DNA of 64,000 nt, taken from a virus. Below are positions 4,909 to 60,003 of this stretch, piece after piece (position 1 is the stretch's first letter; every line of letters begins with the position of its first letter). Location of the stretch: positions 18,458 to 82,457 of the IMG/VR virus record IMGVR_UViG_3300027302_000005; one strand, 5' to 3'. The translations under genes and the position numbers were made by a program. The notes under the pieces were generated by a model, which saw only the letters and a list, made by a program, of their open reading frames with translations, did no database searches and was not told where the DNA came from.

Positions 4909-5458
4909 CTTCAAGGTTGGGGATATTGTAGTTTGGAATGGAATGTGTGGTGACAAAACATTTGAAATTGGTAAAAAGGGAAAGGTTATGGAGTATTACA
5001 CTACACATGACGTAGATTTTTTAAGGGTTGATGTTGCTGGATACCAAGACTCTTACTTTGCTTGGCGTTGGGATTTGGTTTCACCAGAAACTACGATTTC
5101 AACCACTGTTGAAACAGAGCAACCCACTGAAACCAAAGCTACACAAACAGGTGGAAGCACACCAAACCAATATCGTCTTTCTATCAACCTCCCTTTGACA
5201 GAAGATCGTACACAATACGTTGATGTTGATCTTGAAGCAATGGATGTTATTGATGCTTTGGATTTGTCTGGTAATCTGAAAGATGTTCAGAAAGCCTTGT
5301 TCCGTATGGGGAAGAAAGATGGAACGCCAGAAACATATGATTTCAACAAGTGCATCTTCTTCTTGTTGCGGGAGATGAAGAAACGTGGCATTATTAGTCA
5401 TGGGAAGTTTTGGGAAGCTACTAAAGCTATTGATGAAGTGCTGAGTAAATGTGAATGA
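4901..5458 (+). CDS. hypothetical protein with SH3-like N-terminus, 185 aa
   Basis: The frame is open from an ATG at 4847, but the ATG at 4901 follows AGGAG/GAAAGAAG and gives the usual 8-base overlap with the gene before. The product starts MNDFKVGDIVVWNGM, like the gene at 4037, then has a Thr/Glu-rich linker (about 60-85) and a helical C-terminal half of unknown function. The two genes may be diverged relatives. Confidence 0.65.
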   Translation: MNDFKVGDIVVWNGMCGDKTFEIGKKGKVMEYYTTHDVDFLRVDVAGYQDSYFAWRWDLVSPETTISTTVETEQPTETKATQTGGSTPNQYRLSINLPLTEDRTQYVDVDLEAMDVIDALDLSGNLKDVQKALFRMGKKDGTPETYDFNKCIFFLLREMKKRGIISHGKFWEATKAIDEVLSKCE

Positions 5459-5724
5459 AAACCTATAATTACATCCCCTACCAAGAGTATTGTCCGATTG
5501 ATTGCACTGTAGAATATCGTCGGAAATACAATGTTGGGGATGTGTTCGAGAATAAAGCTAAGTGCTTGTCATGCGGGGATGTGATTACATCAAAGCATGT
5601 ACATGATTTTGTCTGGTGTAGTTGTGGGAAGTTGGGTGTTGATGGGGGTAGCCACTATGCTAAGCGTAATTTCCAGAATGTTGATGGGTGGGAAGAGATG
5701 TCTGTTGCATATGAAAATGTGTAA
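5455..5724 (+). CDS. small zinc-ribbon phage protein, 89 aa (DUF7695-like)
   Basis: A conserved block CLSCGDVITSKHVHDFVWC followed by SCGKLGVDGG is typical of a small cysteine-rich protein seen in many large phages (DUF7695 as I recall it). The C-x2-C and C-x-C pairs should bind one zinc. Function unknown. The start overlaps the preceding stop by 4 bases (ATGA). The end of the gene coincides with the promoter at 5705-5733. Confidence 0.65.
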   Translation: MKTYNYIPYQEYCPIDCTVEYRRKYNVGDVFENKAKCLSCGDVITSKHVHDFVWCSCGKLGVDGGSHYAKRNFQNVDGWEEMSVAYENV

Positions 5725-5733
5725 TGGTATAAT
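5705..5733 (+). promoter_or_regulatory. promoter with extended -10, upstream of the MazG-like gene
   Basis: TGGTATAAT (5725-5733) is a perfect -10 with TGn extension. TTGCAT (5705-5710) is a weak -35 at 17-base spacing. The next ATG is at 5767 behind AGGAGAAAG. This should start a second message for the nucleotide-metabolism genes. Confidence 0.65.
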
Positions 5734-5766
5734 TATTTTCCGGTACGGTGAAATAGGAGAAAGTTA

Positions 5767-6279
5767 ATGCGGAAGTATGGGCTAAAAGAATTTGAAGAGG
5801 ATATTGCTTTCTTCAACGAAGCATGTGGTGTGGCGTCTTACGATGAAGACAGTAAGCCAGAAGATGTGTATCAAGGTGTTCTAAGGCAATACAACATCAT
5901 TCAAGAAGAACTGAATGAACTCAAACATGCTGCTGAAACACAAGACGAAACAGAAATGTTGGATGCTGTTGTCGATGTCCTATTCACATCCTTACGGTTG
6001 GTTAGTCTACTTGATAAGCGTTACAATATAATGGCTGGATGTAAAGCTGTTGCAGAGAACAACGCTTTAAAATATACAAGCAGTAAAGATAGAGCGAGAC
6101 AGTGGCAGATGACTAAGAAAGAGAAAACGATTGACTGTGAATTAGTTGAAACTAACGTATTTACAGGCTATGATTGTGGAACGGACTATGACACCTACTA
6201 TTGCATCAAGAACGCAAAAGGTAAGGTGCTGAAGTATGAAGGATTCCCTCAGGTTGATTTAAGCGTTATGAGGAACTGA
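5767..6279 (+). CDS. MazG-like nucleotide pyrophosphohydrolase
   Basis: All-alpha NTP-pyrophosphatase. IIQEELNELKHA (about residues 46-57) followed by EMLDAVVDVLFTSLRL (about 64-79) matches the EExxE ... ExxD metal-binding signature. This family hydrolyses (d)NTPs or related nucleotides to monophosphates and in phages may cleanse nucleotide pools or lower host (p)ppGpp effects. The C-terminal 60 residues (DCELVETNVFTGYDC) are an added unknown segment. It sits directly behind the promoter at 5705 and upstream of thyX and nrdAB, consistent with a dNTP-pool role. Confidence 0.8.
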   Translation: MRKYGLKEFEEDIAFFNEACGVASYDEDSKPEDVYQGVLRQYNIIQEELNELKHAAETQDETEMLDAVVDVLFTSLRLVSLLDKRYNIMAGCKAVAENNALKYTSSKDRARQWQMTKKEKTIDCELVETNVFTGYDCGTDYDTYYCIKNAKGKVLKYEGFPQVDLSVMRN

Positions 6280-17970: not shown

Positions 17971-19422
17971 TTAACTATTGACAACAATATCAGCAAGAGT
18001 GATAGTGGCTCGTTTATAATAATCTACAGTGACATTGGTAGTTGCAACAGGTGGGTTGACATCGTCCACCTTCAAAGATGTTACATAGTGACCAGCAACA
18101 GTGTTGATTGGTGTGTAGAGACGGCTGTATATAACATCATCACCAATTCTCAATCCATCAATATAGTCTTTGATAGCTTGCTTAATCTGGTCATCGCCAT
18201 TAACAGGATAATCAGCATCTGTGGTTACATCTACTTCAATATAGATGGGCAGATCGGTAGGGCGATCAAACGAAACATCATGGCTCACACCTTGACTGTC
18301 AACAACACTTTCTGTCACTGTACCATAGCTCAAGATACCGGCAGGTTTGTTGTCCCAAATGGCTTGAGCAATATCAATAGTGCTACCACCTAGAACAATA
18401 GGGTAGAATGAGTGAGCAGGAACACCAATCCCATTGGTTGTATCTGTTTCATTTTCATAAATGATGACTTGTTCAACACCATCAATTTTAAGAATGGCAG
18501 CGTAGATAGCTTCGTATGTATTCACACTGTCTTGGAACTTAGCCAAAGCATATCGTGTACGCAGTTCACTATCTGTCTCAATGTTTGTCCCTTCCACAGC
18601 AGCCGAAGGGTTGGTAACTGTATCCCAACCAATAACAGGAGACTGAATGCTCTGGATTGTATTAGCAGCTTGGCTATTAGGGCCAGTTTCAGTGCAGGTA
18701 GCACTAACACTCTTCTTAACTTTACTGATGTCCCAATCTGTACCAACATCGAATGTACAAGTGTATCCCTGATTAACTTCCTGAATCAGTGCTTCGCTAT
18801 CAACAAGCGTTGCAATCAAGTAAGTGTCATGGTTTGTATTAACTTCGGTGATTATAGCGTTGACAATCTCCGATTCAGTAGCAGAAGAATCAGAAGTAAT
18901 AGAAACAGTAACAGGAGAAGCATTGATACCAGAAATCTGATAGGTAAAACTATAAACCGTAGAGTTGGCAACAGTTGCCGGAGAAATCTGTACAGCAACA
19001 CACAACCCTTCATCCAGAGTGATTTCACTGTCAGTGCTAAATACTTTCCCCGTAGAAGAAGAACGAACATTACTATCAACAGGGATGATCGTGCCGTAGT
19101 CACCATAACATACAAGCTCCGCTGTAGATGCTGTAGCACTCTTACGAGCCACACCACCAGTTAATGTGATATTCTCTAAGGCATTCCCTGTGGCTTCATT
19201 AATGTCATAAGCCGCATATACATCTTGGGCTGCTTCCCACAAATCAGCAATAGGGGCGGCAAACAAATTAATGTATCGACCAAGAACAGATGTATCGCTT
19301 GTATTAACAATATCCCCCGGCTCGACAAGAGAAGCAAACTCGCTTTCCGCTTTAGCCTTCAGTTCCGCAATAATATCATTCAGGCGTTTTACTGAAAAGC
19401 CTGTGCTAGAAAGTCCAGCCAT
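17971..19422 (-). CDS. baseplate J-like wedge protein
   Basis: 483 residues, the usual size for baseplate J. The N-terminal helix region (LNDIIAELKAKAESEF), LFAAPIADLWEAAQDVYAAYDINEATG and a later DSELRTRYALAK (about 278) correspond to the conserved J-family segments. Forms the wedge that joins hub and fibres. Flanked by the gp25-like protein and DUF2612 as in Mu- and P2-type tails. Confidence 0.9.
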   Translation of the reverse strand: MAGLSSTGFSVKRLNDIIAELKAKAESEFASLVEPGDIVNTSDTSVLGRYINLFAAPIADLWEAAQDVYAAYDINEATGNALENITLTGGVARKSATASTAELVCYGDYGTIIPVDSNVRSSSTGKVFSTDSEITLDEGLCVAVQISPATVANSTVYSFTYQISGINASPVTVSITSDSSATESEIVNAIITEVNTNHDTYLIATLVDSEALIQEVNQGYTCTFDVGTDWDISKVKKSVSATCTETGPNSQAANTIQSIQSPVIGWDTVTNPSAAVEGTNIETDSELRTRYALAKFQDSVNTYEAIYAAILKIDGVEQVIIYENETDTTNGIGVPAHSFYPIVLGGSTIDIAQAIWDNKPAGILSYGTVTESVVDSQGVSHDVSFDRPTDLPIYIEVDVTTDADYPVNGDDQIKQAIKDYIDGLRIGDDVIYSRLYTPINTVAGHYVTSLKVDDVNPPVATTNVTVDYYKRATITLADIVVNS

Positions 19423-47416: not shown

Positions 47417-47624
47417 AAAGTTCTATGCTGTACATCGTGAAACAGGTGAGAGGTGGAAACCTTGTAAGGATAGTAGTACCGAGCATGAATACATTGTAAT
47501 GTACGACACTGGTTATTTTGCTGTTGTGAAGGATTACGGGTGGGATGGACTCACCATTCAAGCATTGGATACAAAGGTTTGGAAGGTTATTTGGAAAGAT
47601 AAAGATGAATGGCTTAGAGGATAA
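47409..47624 (+). CDS. hypothetical protein, 71 aa
   Basis: ATG at 47409 (MSKKFYAVHRETGERWKP) inside the end of the previous gene; ATGs at 47397 and 47403 are alternatives. Beta-rich, ends DEWLRG. The HNH gene follows after one base. Confidence 0.5.
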   Translation: MSKKFYAVHRETGERWKPCKDSSTEHEYIVMYDTGYFAVVKDYGWDGLTIQALDTKVWKVIWKDKDEWLRG

Positions 47625-47625
47625 A

Positions 47626-48219
47626 ATGAAGAAACCGAGAGAGCTTCCTTCACAGCAAGATTTATTAAAACTGTTTTATTACGATAACGGTTTAAAGTGG
47701 AAAGAAGGTAGAAAAGGCAGCAAGCTGTGCAATAAAGATGGAGATGTTGTTGGTTGTGTTGGTAACGAAGGTTATGCCATGATAAACGTGTTTGGTGTTA
47801 CTTATATGTTAAGTAGGATTGTATACCAGACAGTTAACGGTAATCTGACCACTGATCTTGTTATAGATCACCTTAACAGAGATCGTAAAGATAATAGGAT
47901 TGAGAACTTGAGGGCTATTACCGAGAAGAATAATCTCAGAAGTAAAACTATGTACTCTAATAACTCAACAGGAGTTACAGGAGTAAGTTCACAAGCCTAT
48001 AAATACATGAAAAAAGATGGAACAGAGGTTGAACATCAATATTACACCGCCCATTGGCAAGACCCTTCAGGTAAGACGAGATTAAAGTGCTTCAGTATAT
48101 CTAAATACGGGAAAGAAGAGGCGTTTCATCTAGCTTGTGAATACCGACAAGCAATGATAGAGTCTCTTAAAAATTCTGGAGAGTGGTATGATGAAACACA
48201 CGGGAGTATGAAATGTTAG
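47626..48219 (+). CDS. HNH homing endonuclease with AP2-like region, 197 aa
   Basis: LVIDHLNRDRKDNRIENLRA (about 80-99) is the HNH core. STGVTGVSSQAYKYMKKDGT and SKYGKEEAFHLACEYRQ are the AP2-like DNA-binding tail usual in phage HNH_3 enzymes. Inserted among tiny early genes, next to dCMP deaminase and a 17-codon remnant (48213-48266). ATG at 47626 behind AGAGGA. Confidence 0.85.
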   Translation: MKKPRELPSQQDLLKLFYYDNGLKWKEGRKGSKLCNKDGDVVGCVGNEGYAMINVFGVTYMLSRIVYQTVNGNLTTDLVIDHLNRDRKDNRIENLRAITEKNNLRSKTMYSNNSTGVTGVSSQAYKYMKKDGTEVEHQYYTAHWQDPSGKTRLKCFSISKYGKEEAFHLACEYRQAMIESLKNSGEWYDETHGSMKC

Positions 48220-48266
48220 TATTGAAGTACTGTGACGAATGTGGAAAACCGACAAATGAAGCCTAA
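48213..48266 (+). pseudogene. 17-codon remnant or leader with C-x2-C
   Basis: A short frame MLVLKYCDECGKPTNEA overlaps the end of the HNH gene and the start of the deaminase gene. It looks like the N-terminus of a zinc protein cut short, perhaps by arrival of the HNH gene. Too short to be sure. Confidence 0.25.
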
Positions 48267-48684
48267 ATACCTCCAAGCCTTCATGGACATGACCGAACGC
48301 TTTGCTCAAACATCTGAAGCCACAAGGCTTAAAGTAGGGGCTTGTATCATCAAGAATGGCAACCCCATTGCTTTTGGTGTTAATGGGACATTGCCGGGGT
48401 GGGAAAGTAATACGTGTGAAAGCCAATCTGGTGAAACATTGCCAGACATTGTGCTACATGCTGAAATAAATGCCTTGAACAAGCTGCGGAAGATCAGTGA
48501 AAGCAGCAAGGATGCTACGTTGCTTGTAACACACTCCCCTTGTCTACGCTGTGCTCACGAAATTGTTGACAGTGGAATCAAGCATGTGTACTATAAGCAT
48601 CAGTACAGAAGCTCTGACGGAATAGAGCATCTTTTGAAGCACGGGATTGATGTGATACAACTTGCTACACATCTAGAGAATTGA
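48256..48684 (+). CDS. deoxycytidylate (dCMP) deaminase
   Basis: Converts dCMP to dUMP, the substrate of ThyX. Zinc site HAE (68-70, LHAEINAL) and PCLRC (95-99) are intact; 142 residues, normal. Start ATG 48256 with GTGGAAA upstream. Shifts the pool from C to T and is linked functionally with thyX and nrdAB in the left block. Confidence 0.88.
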   Translation: MKPKYLQAFMDMTERFAQTSEATRLKVGACIIKNGNPIAFGVNGTLPGWESNTCESQSGETLPDIVLHAEINALNKLRKISESSKDATLLVTHSPCLRCAHEIVDSGIKHVYYKHQYRSSDGIEHLLKHGIDVIQLATHLEN

Positions 48685-48685
48685 C

Positions 48686-49195
48686 ATGAACATCTTCATC
48701 ACCAACGAATGCCCTATGCAATCAGCCACAGATCACTGTGACATTCACTTACGAAAGCAGTTAATCGAAAGTTGCCAATTGCTATCAACAGCACATCATT
48801 TCCTTGATGGCGAGACAATAGCGATGAAGCCCACACACTACAATCATCCCTGTGCTGTATGGGCGCGTAAGACCTCTGGTAATTACAAGTGGCTCTATCA
48901 ACATTATGTTGCTTTGTGTACGGAATACACGTATCGTACTGGCAAGGAACATGCTTCCAGTAGGTTTATCGGTGTTTTGAGTAAAGTTCCTGAAAACATC
49001 TTGCAAGAACGTCAGACATTCTTTGCAAAGGCGATGCCTGACGAACACAAAGCTATCCCGAATGTTCCATTGGCGTATCAGAGTTATCTGAATGTGAAGT
49101 TTAAAGATTGGCAGACACGTACAGACAAGAAGCAGATGCCTGTGCAGTGGACTAAGCGTAATATTCCTAGTTGGTATGTTGGAGAGAATAAATGA
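48686..49195 (+). CDS. DenV/Pyr_excise-related phage protein, 169 aa
   Basis: The layout DHCDIHLRKQLIESCQLLST, NHPCAVWARKTSGNYKWLYQ and EYTYRTGKEHASS is a widespread phage family that databases label pyrimidine-dimer DNA glycosylase-like. Whether it has glycosylase activity is not established to my knowledge. Its stop overlaps the CmoA-like gene start by 4 bases, so it belongs to the same translational unit as the modification pair. Confidence 0.65.
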   Translation: MNIFITNECPMQSATDHCDIHLRKQLIESCQLLSTAHHFLDGETIAMKPTHYNHPCAVWARKTSGNYKWLYQHYVALCTEYTYRTGKEHASSRFIGVLSKVPENILQERQTFFAKAMPDEHKAIPNVPLAYQSYLNVKFKDWQTRTDKKQMPVQWTKRNIPSWYVGENK

Positions 49196-49845
49196 CATTT
49201 GCATTTTGTAACATTGCAAACTCTTTTGATGACCATATCTCGAAGTCAATTGAAAGTTACAATATATTGTTTAGTAATGTTACTTCTTTGGCTGATTTTT
49301 TTGTATTAAAAAACACCGTTATTGTAGATGTGGGCTCATCAACAGGTAAGTTGCTTCATTCACTGAAGCATAAGTATACAGAATATAAAATTAAATTCGT
49401 TGGTTACGAATGCGAGGAGGTTTTCTATGAGTATTACGATGACGATATAATAAAAAAACAAAATGCTCTGCTATACAACGAGAGTAATGTTTGTTTTTGC
49501 ACATGCATATTTACATTGCAATTCTTACCTATCGGTGAGAGAATGAACATATTGAATAACATATACAAGTCTCTTCTGCCGGGAGGGGGTTTTATAATTG
49601 CGGAGAAGACGAACAGTGGAAGTTATTTTGATAAGATTTTCCAAGAAATTTTAATTGAGGACAAAAGAAAGCACTTCACTGATGCTGAGTTATTAGATAA
49701 AAATCTCTCATTACGAACTATGATGAGAACTGTTAGCAACAGTGATATGGTCACTATGCTTAATCTTGCCGGTTTTATAGACGTAGATATATTCTATAAA
49801 GACAAGGCATTTACCGGATATGTTTGTCGGAAGGGTATATTATGA
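49192..49845 (+). CDS. CmoA-like carboxy-SAM synthase homologue
   Basis: 217 residues. The order IANSFDDHISKSIESYNILF (8-27), TVIVDVGSSTGKLL (SAM loop, 42-55), CIFTLQFLPIGERMNILNNI (105-124), LLPGGGFIIAEK (128-139) and the late SNSDMVTMLNLAGF match E. coli CmoA (FD..I..S..GY, DLGCSLG, NFTLQFL, LNPGG...SEK, TDS...L.KAGF). CmoA makes carboxy-S-adenosylmethionine from SAM and prephenate for tRNA U34. The region of CmoA Arg199 reads KNLSLRTMM here, so that Arg is not aligned exactly. The overlap with a cytosine methyltransferase suggests the product is used on DNA, not tRNA. Confidence 0.8.
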   Translation: MTFAFCNIANSFDDHISKSIESYNILFSNVTSLADFFVLKNTVIVDVGSSTGKLLHSLKHKYTEYKIKFVGYECEEVFYEYYDDDIIKKQNALLYNESNVCFCTCIFTLQFLPIGERMNILNNIYKSLLPGGGFIIAEKTNSGSYFDKIFQEILIEDKRKHFTDAELLDKNLSLRTMMRTVSNSDMVTMLNLAGFIDVDIFYKDKAFTGYVCRKGIL

Positions 49846-50849
49846 AAGTTGTGTCGCTGTTCTCTGGCTGTGGTGGGAGTAGTCTGGGATATAAGATGGC
49901 TGGTATGGAGGTTATGTGTGCTGTAGAGTTTATTAAAAGTGCTGCAGATTGTTATAAGGCTAATCACCCAACAACACCCATACTGGTAAAAGATATACGC
50001 CACATACGTGGTATAGACATTCTTGATGTTGCTGACTTGCAAGTAGGAGAACTTGATATTTTAGATGGAAGCCCTCCTTGTGCATCCTTTTCCGCCGTAG
50101 GCAAAAGAGAAAAACTCTGGGGCAAGGTGAAACAATACTCTAACACTAACCAACGAGTAGACGACTTGTTCTTTGAATATATCAGGATTGTAAATGAGTT
50201 AAAACCTAAAGTTGCGATTGCAGAAAATGTAAAGGGTTTAACTCAAGGCAAGTCAAAAGTAGTTTTGCAACAAATTCTTGACGAATTTTCAAATGTAGGG
50301 TATACACCTAACTTCAAAGTAATGAAAGCGTGCGATTTCGGAGCGCCGCAGGTAAGGGAGCGTGTAATTATTGTTGCAACAAGAAATGATATTCAATGCT
50401 CACCCTTTGTGTACCCAGAACCAACTCACAAAAAGGAACAATACGTGAGTGTTAAGGATGCAATATCTGATATTGTTAATAGTGTAGAGGAGGTAGAACT
50501 GCTGCTAGATGCTGGAAAGAAATACGCTAACATGCAGAAGTGGGACGAAATACCACGCCCCGGAATGTACCACCCTGTAAGATTTAATGTAGGTAAGAAT
50601 AGGTGGGACTACCCGAGTTACACAATAACGTACAACGACTCTAAACTAAACGCTGCCGGTCTTTGTCATCCATTTGAGAAGCGTAGGCACACCGTAGGAG
50701 AGATGAAAAGACTGATGGGATTCCCTGATTCATACGTGCTTCTAGGAACTTGGCAGGAACAAGTAGAGAGGCTTGGACGTAGTGTTTGTCCTCAAGTTAT
50801 TTGCGCTGTAGCCAAGCAAGTTGAGGACATCTTAAAGGAGAAAGTCTGA
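49842..50849 (+). CDS. cytosine-C5 DNA methyltransferase with motif X Asn-to-Arg change (candidate carboxymethyltransferase)
   Basis: 335 residues, start ATG 49842 inside the CmoA-like stop (ATGA). Motif I SLFSGCGGSSLGY (5-17), motif IV DGSPPCASFS with catalytic Cys80, motif VI AENV (127-130), motif VIII QVRER (170-174) and the RLMGFPD segment are intact, so it should be active. Motif X reads LGRSVCPQV: Arg313 replaces the Asn that is nearly invariant in G-N-S/A-V. That Asn contacts the cofactor; an engineered Lys at the same place in M.MpeI gave use of carboxy-SAM. Target sequence unknown. No restriction gene is near, so protection of phage DNA is likely. Confidence 0.9.
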   Translation: MKVVSLFSGCGGSSLGYKMAGMEVMCAVEFIKSAADCYKANHPTTPILVKDIRHIRGIDILDVADLQVGELDILDGSPPCASFSAVGKREKLWGKVKQYSNTNQRVDDLFFEYIRIVNELKPKVAIAENVKGLTQGKSKVVLQQILDEFSNVGYTPNFKVMKACDFGAPQVRERVIIVATRNDIQCSPFVYPEPTHKKEQYVSVKDAISDIVNSVEEVELLLDAGKKYANMQKWDEIPRPGMYHPVRFNVGKNRWDYPSYTITYNDSKLNAAGLCHPFEKRRHTVGEMKRLMGFPDSYVLLGTWQEQVERLGRSVCPQVICAVAKQVEDILKEKV

Positions 50850-58549: not shown

Positions 58550-58777
58550 ATGACATACAATGTATTGGAAGAACGTAACAAATGGAAATATCAGCTTGAG
58601 GAAGGGACATTCGATCTAAGTCAATTGTATTGGTTGAATGAATATAAGGCCAATAGGGAGGAAGAAGCAGGACGGACAGATTTTAGGATGAACAGGCAAA
58701 TAGAGATGATGTGTGAGTATATTATGTGGTTGGAGAAGCGAATTGAAGACGTGAGATTTAATGGAGACGCTGTATGA
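58550..58777 (+). CDS. hypothetical protein, 75 aa
   Basis: ATG 58550 (MTYNVLEERNKWKYQLEEGT), just after the terminator; frame upstream is the T-run. Highly charged, helical. ATGA overlap with the HNH gene. Starts MTY like the HNH gene, probably coincidence. Confidence 0.5.
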   Translation: MTYNVLEERNKWKYQLEEGTFDLSQLYWLNEYKANREEEAGRTDFRMNRQIEMMCEYIMWLEKRIEDVRFNGDAV

Positions 58778-60003
58778 CTTATTGTACATGGAGAGATATT
58801 GAAGGGTGGAACAATCGTTATATGGTGAGTGATAGCGGCAGGGTTTGGGATAAGAAGCACTGGAAGGATGTTAGTGTTTTAAAGTCAGGTCTCAAAGGAA
58901 ATGACTATTACTACGTAAATCTTAGCGATGATTCTACTGGAAAGAGGAAACTTGTCAGAGTGCATAGACTTATGGCTGAGGCGTTCCTTCCTAGAACCCC
59001 CGAAGAAAGAGAAACAAAGAATATTGTAGACCATATCGACCGAGATAGGTTCAATAATCACATCTCTAATCTAAGATGGGTGTGCCGTAAAGGGAATCAA
59101 CGTAACACTAAGCGAACCAGATATAACGAAGCTGGTGTACCTTTAGCGGAAGTGATTGAGAGGAAGTTTGGTTCTGTACAACCTCACCTTGGAAATATAT
59201 ACAGCAGAGTGAATAACGGTTTGTGTCTTGAAGATGCGTTATTTGAATATGAATACAAACTGGAAACAGGGGAGGATTATTCAAAATGGCTATCCTACAT
59301 CGAACAGAAATATGAGTGCTATGGAACCAAAATATCAATGCAAGAACTTGTTGAAGAGAAGGGTTTGGTAGAAGAGGATGTTGTTACCAAAACTAGAAGT
59401 GGGTGGACTGTTGAAGAAATAATGAGTGGTCATAAATGGTATGACGGAAAGTATAGCTTTGTCACAACCAACTCATCTTGTACTGGTACTTGGTGGCCAA
59501 CAAAGGCTAGGTGCATGTCTGCCATGAAGATTGGTGACGGGATATGGGACAGGGCAGCTACTGATGCTGACGGTAGATTAGACATCCTTGCAGCTAAGAA
59601 AGAGGTGGAGAATCTTTATAAAAAGGAATGGGTGATTAACGGAATTACTTATTTCGATAGTTTTGAAGGGTTGTGCAGAAAGTTTAATAAAGATTACAGT
59701 GCAGTCAATACTAGGAGGATGCGCCAAGGAATGACTTTGGAAGAGGCTCTTACGACAGAACCTAAACGTATTAATTACTACATACTGGATGGGGAGATAA
59801 GATTACCAAGTGGTGAAACACTGACTTTTGTTAATGAAAAAGTGAAACCAATTCACTTAATGCAGAAACTAAACCTATCTAGTAGGTATTTCAATGGTAA
59901 GAATAAACAAAATAGAGAGGAAATTGGCTGTGCAGTAAAAGCTCTAATTGAGACACTGAATTACTTTGATGCAGATACATCCAACCTTTCTGTAGCGTTG
60001 TAA
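58774..60003 (+). CDS. HNH homing endonuclease with NUMOD4 domain, 409 aa
   Basis: WRDIEGWNNRYMVSDSGRVW (residues 6-25) is NUMOD4. VHRLMAEAFLP then NIVDHIDRDRFNNHISNLRW (about 83-102) is the HNH_3 core with N-x-NT end. The long C-terminal 270 residues have repeat-like NUMOD/helix-turn-helix segments (ISMQELVEEKGLVEEDVVTK, FEGLCRKFNKDYSAVNTRRM). A free-standing mobile endonuclease at the end of the early block. Confidence 0.85.
   Translation: MTYCTWRDIEGWNNRYMVSDSGRVWDKKHWKDVSVLKSGLKGNDYYYVNLSDDSTGKRKLVRVHRLMAEAFLPRTPEERETKNIVDHIDRDRFNNHISNLRWVCRKGNQRNTKRTRYNEAGVPLAEVIERKFGSVQPHLGNIYSRVNNGLCLEDALFEYEYKLETGEDYSKWLSYIEQKYECYGTKISMQELVEEKGLVEEDVVTKTRSGWTVEEIMSGHKWYDGKYSFVTTNSSCTGTWWPTKARCMSAMKIGDGIWDRAATDADGRLDILAAKKEVENLYKKEWVINGITYFDSFEGLCRKFNKDYSAVNTRRMRQGMTLEEALTTEPKRINYYILDGEIRLPSGETLTFVNEKVKPIHLMQKLNLSSRYFNGKNKQNREEIGCAVKALIETLNYFDADTSNLSVAL

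Follow-up and report, generated by a model that had tools for sequence, protein, structure and literature searches.

A probable two-gene DNA-carboxymethylation cassette of the CmoA-CmoX kind in a contractile-tailed phage

A cytosine modification system has been described in Synechococcus phage S-B43 (Yang et al. 2025; PMC12783734). The phage CmoA (SpCmoA) makes carboxy-SAM (Cx-SAM), and CmoX (SpCmoX) makes 5-carboxymethylcytosine (5cxmC) at GC motifs. Arg350 of SpCmoX contacts the carboxylate of Cx-SAM (PDB 8YF3, titled as a DNA cytosine C5-carboxymethyltransferase in complex with Cx-SAM). Wild-type SpCmoX takes Cx-SAM only, and the R350N mutant takes neither cofactor. CmoY then caps 5cxmC with glycine; the carboxymethyl group serves as the attachment point for this step and is not the final product. 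S-B43 virion DNA contains 5-glycylcarboxymethylcytosine (5gcxmC) and no 5cxmC. Resistance to HhaI digestion was shown for the S-B43 homologues (PMC12783734).

We found a similar pair of genes in a phage record from IMG/VR. Judging from sequence, predicted structure and analogy with S-B43, the two genes very likely form a CmoA-CmoX cassette for DNA carboxymethylation. A sequence-only reading of this DNA had called the natural pairing of the two genes striking. The pairing is real, but the system had already been published in December 2025 (PMC12783734), and the pair is a further example of it, not a new discovery.

Gene order and the phage record

The window, the whole 64,000-base stretch that we analysed, runs from base 18458 to base 82457 of a virus record of 82,457 bases. 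Four plus-strand genes lie head to tail, encoding a dCMP deaminase, a PF03013 protein, a CmoA homologue and a C5-cytosine methyltransferase (Table 1). The deaminase gene ends one base ahead of the ATG of the PF03013 gene, which overlaps cmoA by ATGA in the same direction. The junction between cmoA and cmoX is ATTATGAAAG, with a 4-base overlap, ATGA. Both open reading frames and their coupling thus agree with the sequence-only reading. The methyltransferase region also has a longer mechanical open reading frame, starting at TTG 49824. Promoter-like matches in the region were not commoner than in shuffled sequences.

Table 1. Features of the putative operon, in window coordinates
Feature	Coordinates	Strand	Details
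dCMP deaminase homologue	48232..48684	+	matches to PF00383 and phrog_174
PF03013-family protein (pyrimidine-dimer glycosylase-like; phrog_624)	48686..49195	+	
CmoA homologue, putative carboxy-SAM synthase, 217 aa	49192..49845	+	ATG 49192, TGA 49845
CmoX homologue, putative DNA cytosine-C5 carboxymethyltransferase, 335 aa	49842..50849	+	ATG 49842, TGA 50849
ATGA start/stop overlap	49842..49845	+	couples cmoA to cmoX

The dCMP deaminase gene is a probable member of the same operon, with a probable role in nucleotide supply, and homologues are present on nine other fetched CmoA/CmoX loci. A PF03013 homologue (35% identity) is found on another CmoX contig (locus L084, 3458-4006). Two HNH homing-type endonuclease genes (HNH_3 with AP2 or NUMOD4 domains; window 47545-48219 and 58774-60003) are likely to be mobile genes, and one of these is just upstream of the cmoA-cmoX operon.

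The record encodes contractile-tail proteins (sheath, baseplate J), a family-A DNA polymerase, ribonucleotide reductase and ThyX. The terminases of Pseudomonas phages COT4 and M5.1 share 57% identity with the one encoded here. Terminase relatives measure 96-101 kb; the record, at 82.5 kb, is small beside them and may therefore be incomplete, with genes missing. Apart from the methyltransferase of the pair, the record has no PF00145 gene. A second DNA methyltransferase gene, of the N6/N4 type (PF01555, E=3e-33), lies at 5183-5935 of the record, upstream of the window. Over all 82,457 bases, CpG is scarcer than expected (observed/expected 0.67) and CA/TG more frequent (1.26). This may reflect deamination of a modified CpG cytosine, and host effects may also contribute. 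Use of the GC dinucleotide is unremarkable (1.06) and therefore says nothing about a GC recognition motif.

The methyltransferase and the possible end product

We found that the methyltransferase resembles SpCmoX more closely than any other protein of solved structure. It matched PF00145 (E=1.8e-64). By sequence, the best solved structure was SpCmoX 8YF3 (E=5.1e-61, vs 4.9e-27 for M.HaeIII), and 8YF3 was also the best fold match of the predicted model (pLDDT 90; E=6.7e-32 vs 1.4e-24). Its motifs include SPPC with Cys80, ENV (128-130), Q-x-R-x-R (170-174) and Arg313 in motif X (GRSV); Cys80, ENV and the arginine in place of the motif-X asparagine are all where the sequence-only reading had put them. 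Arg313 occupies the position of HhaI Asn304 and of SpCmoX Arg350, and an arginine is invariant there in 35 diverse relatives. The Cx-SAM-binding and catalytic residues of SpCmoX have counterparts in the window protein (F7, E29, F30, D51, S77-C80 and R313). Based on these matches and residues, the protein is very probably a CmoX, a member of the Cx-SAM-using family.

In the proposed mechanism, CmoA would make carboxy-SAM from SAM and prephenate, and Arg313 of CmoX would grip the carboxylate of this cofactor. CmoX would flip the cytosine out, Cys80 would attack C6, and the carboxymethyl group would be moved to C5 to give 5-carboxymethylcytosine in phage DNA. This base would shield the DNA from host nucleases. 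Both reactions and the role of the arginine were shown for the S-B43 homologues; our own basis is the genes present, their residues and folds, and the co-occurrence of the two families, from which, by analogy, we infer carboxymethylation by this phage. The earlier proposal that the phage makes both its own cofactor and a methyltransferase adapted to it is right in kind, matching the biochemistry and structure of the homologous S-B43 pair.

We found no CmoY-like ligase: there was neither a PF00733 match nor a match to a CmoY profile in six frames of the whole 82.5-kb record. The record also yielded no ParB-domain partner. With no such ligase found, modification may stop at 5cxmC. Our tentative suggestion is that free 5-carboxymethylcytosine is the finished base here, and that the ligase-less two-gene cassette gives more negatively charged DNA; S-B43, the one system characterised so far, adds the glycine cap. 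S-CRM01 and many IMG/VR loci likewise have cmoA-cmoX and no CmoY-like gene on the fetched stretch. Pairs lacking a ligase are in themselves nothing new, since the published survey, which included IMG/VR, counted 2,251 ligases beside 5,615 CmoX (PMC12783734).

However, 5cxmC might also be only an intermediate, to which an unrecognised, off-record or host ligase attaches an amine, much as CmoY does with glycine. We regard this as a real possibility, held with some doubt; it would refine the main reading. S-B43 virion DNA, with its 5gcxmC and no 5cxmC, is a precedent, and of the 166 fetched loci with one or more of the three genes, 85 carry a CmoY-like gene. The ligases in the published survey are diverse (PMC12783734), and genes may be missing from a record of this length. 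Against this stand the lack of PF00733 and CmoY-profile matches on the record and the other pairs, in S-CRM01 and IMG/VR, without a CmoY-like gene on the fetched stretch.

The synthase and its shifted arginine

The CmoA homologue matched phrog_4752 (E=2.8e-40) and NCBIfam TIGR00740 (E=3.6e-21), a model that describes the bacterial tRNA enzyme. The best solved matches by sequence were 1im8, 4iwn and 4gek. The predicted model (pLDDT 89) had the same CmoA entries as its best fold matches (4gek/4iwn, TM 0.87-0.89), E. coli CmoA among them. Tyr23, Asp46, Gly48, Phe111, Glu138 and Lys170 are kept. Several points count against the main reading: the protein is 35% identical to SpCmoA, its 76 bits fall below the TIGR00740 equivalog cut-off of 193 bits, Asp117 of E. 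coli CmoA is replaced by Asn, and the co-occurrence sample described below partly shares ancestry.

Arg199 of E. coli CmoA forms a salt bridge with the cofactor carboxylate (PMC3663124). In the window CmoA this residue is Asn171, and Arg175 and Arg179 stand 4 and 8 residues further on. The sequence-only reading had given the divergence of this region as a caveat. The change is there, but as a worry it is largely answered: active SpCmoA also lacks Arg199, with Glu in its place plus Arg203 and Lys207. SpCmoA has a kcat of 2.33 per s and works at ten times the rate of E. coli CmoA (PMC12783734). After this comparison we rejected the idea that loss of Arg199 means an inactive CmoA.

We found that a basic residue in this region is general among phage CmoAs. 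All 155 aligned sequences, which form 62 clusters at 70% identity and so represent far fewer than 155 independent cases, have Arg or Lys at 199, 203 or 207. Position 203 is basic in 118 of the 155, usually with Glu199 and Lys207. Another 22 have an acidic residue at 199, a non-basic residue at 203 and Arg or Lys at 207, and 15 have Arg or Lys at 199, Glu at 203 and a non-basic residue at 207. A basic residue at 199 never occurred together with one at 203 or 207. In the window CmoA model, residues 171 and 175 are on one helix (164-177), with 179 just beyond. We infer that the carboxylate clamp has shifted along the lid helix by one or two turns; judging from the alignment, Arg175/Arg179 probably replace Arg199. 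This shifted arginine is a structural point absent from the main text of PMC12783734.

Gammaproteobacteria generally have CmoA, and the nearest terminase relatives of this phage infect Pseudomonas. The window CmoA could thus be degenerate, with Arg199 lost and Asp117 changed, and CmoX could draw Cx-SAM from the host enzyme, as SpCmoX does when it is alone in E. coli (PMC12783734). We consider this very unlikely. The cmoA frame is intact, and the fold of its product is confidently predicted. The protein retains the SAM-loop, FTLQF and lid-helix Lys residues, and in the active S-B43 CmoA the arginine has shifted in the same way.

Co-occurrence across phages and comparison with known systems

CmoA and CmoX relatives were gathered from IMG/VR and phage records, and a control set was seeded with three C5-methyltransferases without the motif-X arginine. 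When the window CmoA and CmoX were each used as a single-sequence pattern to scan IMG/VR, no relatives came up; alignment queries did find them. In the first collection, 165 of 166 CmoX-family sequences had Arg at the HhaI Asn304 position. The remaining one had Asn, and no CmoA was on its short fetched stretch. In the methyltransferase-seeded IMG/VR sample, cmoA was within 3 kb of 117/128 Arg-type methyltransferases vs 1/13 non-Arg ones (Fisher p=2e-10, nominal because the sequences share ancestry; loci were fetched by methyltransferase only, not by CmoA). This bears out the co-occurrence that the earlier reading had suggested looking for. All named Arg-type phages examined (S-B43, S-CRM01, PaBG, Mcat8 and TurkishDelight) had a CmoA-like neighbour; Melnitz (Leu), Fpv5 (Met), CL131 and Elbi (both Asn) had none.

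Staphylococcus phages PhiSepi-HH3 (L004 3980-5679) and vB-SscS-F1 (L008 3962-6480) have CmoA beside a C5-methyltransferase with Gly-Gly (VVGGVIN), not Gly-Arg, in motif X. Should Cx-SAM be the cofactor of these enzymes too, they must grip its carboxylate in another way. In Methylophilales phage Melnitz (L168 1-5113), motif X of a CmoX-like C5-methyltransferase carries Leu (GLMV). This stretch lacks CmoA but has a gene for a RimK-like ATP-grasp protein some 3 kb upstream.

Both proteins belong to large SAM-dependent families and C5-methyltransferases are common in phages, but it is most improbable that this one is an ordinary 5-methylcytosine enzyme beside a CmoA serving tRNA wobble modification or other methylation, given Arg313 (wild-type SpCmoX with the equivalent Arg takes Cx-SAM only), the joint occurrence of Arg-type methyltransferases and cmoA, and a record with no tRNA genes.

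The CmoA-CmoX cassette favoured here would bring the newly described 5cxmC system into a phage with a contractile tail and a terminase related to those of Pseudomonas phages, in a minimal version in which no ligase was recognised. Whether 5cxmC by itself protects phage DNA could be tested directly in this phage. What is still of interest is the ligase-less form and the shifted Arg of CmoA.

Like S-B43, the window phage has CmoA near a C5-methyltransferase with SPPC and the motif-X Arg, and keeps the named Cx-SAM residues; the methyltransferases are 40% identical and the CmoAs 35%. S-B43 is a cyanophage and has CmoY; the window pair has none, either between its genes or found on the record. The recognition region of the window methyltransferase has diverged from that of S-B43 CmoX, so the GC motif need not hold. 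Synechococcus phage S-CRM01 (NC_015569) has the same 4-base overlap of cmoA and cmoX, and the 6.7 kb fetched from it contain no ligase gene, but this is a T4-like cyanophage and its methyltransferase is 39% identical to that of the window. IMG/VR contig 3300022696_000140 (L010) has the closest methyltransferase found (57%) and an overlapping CmoA-like gene. Its CmoA differs in having Asp199/Ile203/Lys207, and no other nearby plus-strand window gene matched there at E 1e-5. Engineered M.MpeI N374K gains Cx-SAM use from a basic residue at the same Asn (cited in PMC12783734), but the residue is Lys instead of Arg and the enzyme is CG-specific. The E. coli CmoA/CmoB pathway for tRNA cmo5U34 shares the CmoA fold and family; it differs in its Arg199/Glu203 arrangement and in a partner that acts on tRNA, not DNA.
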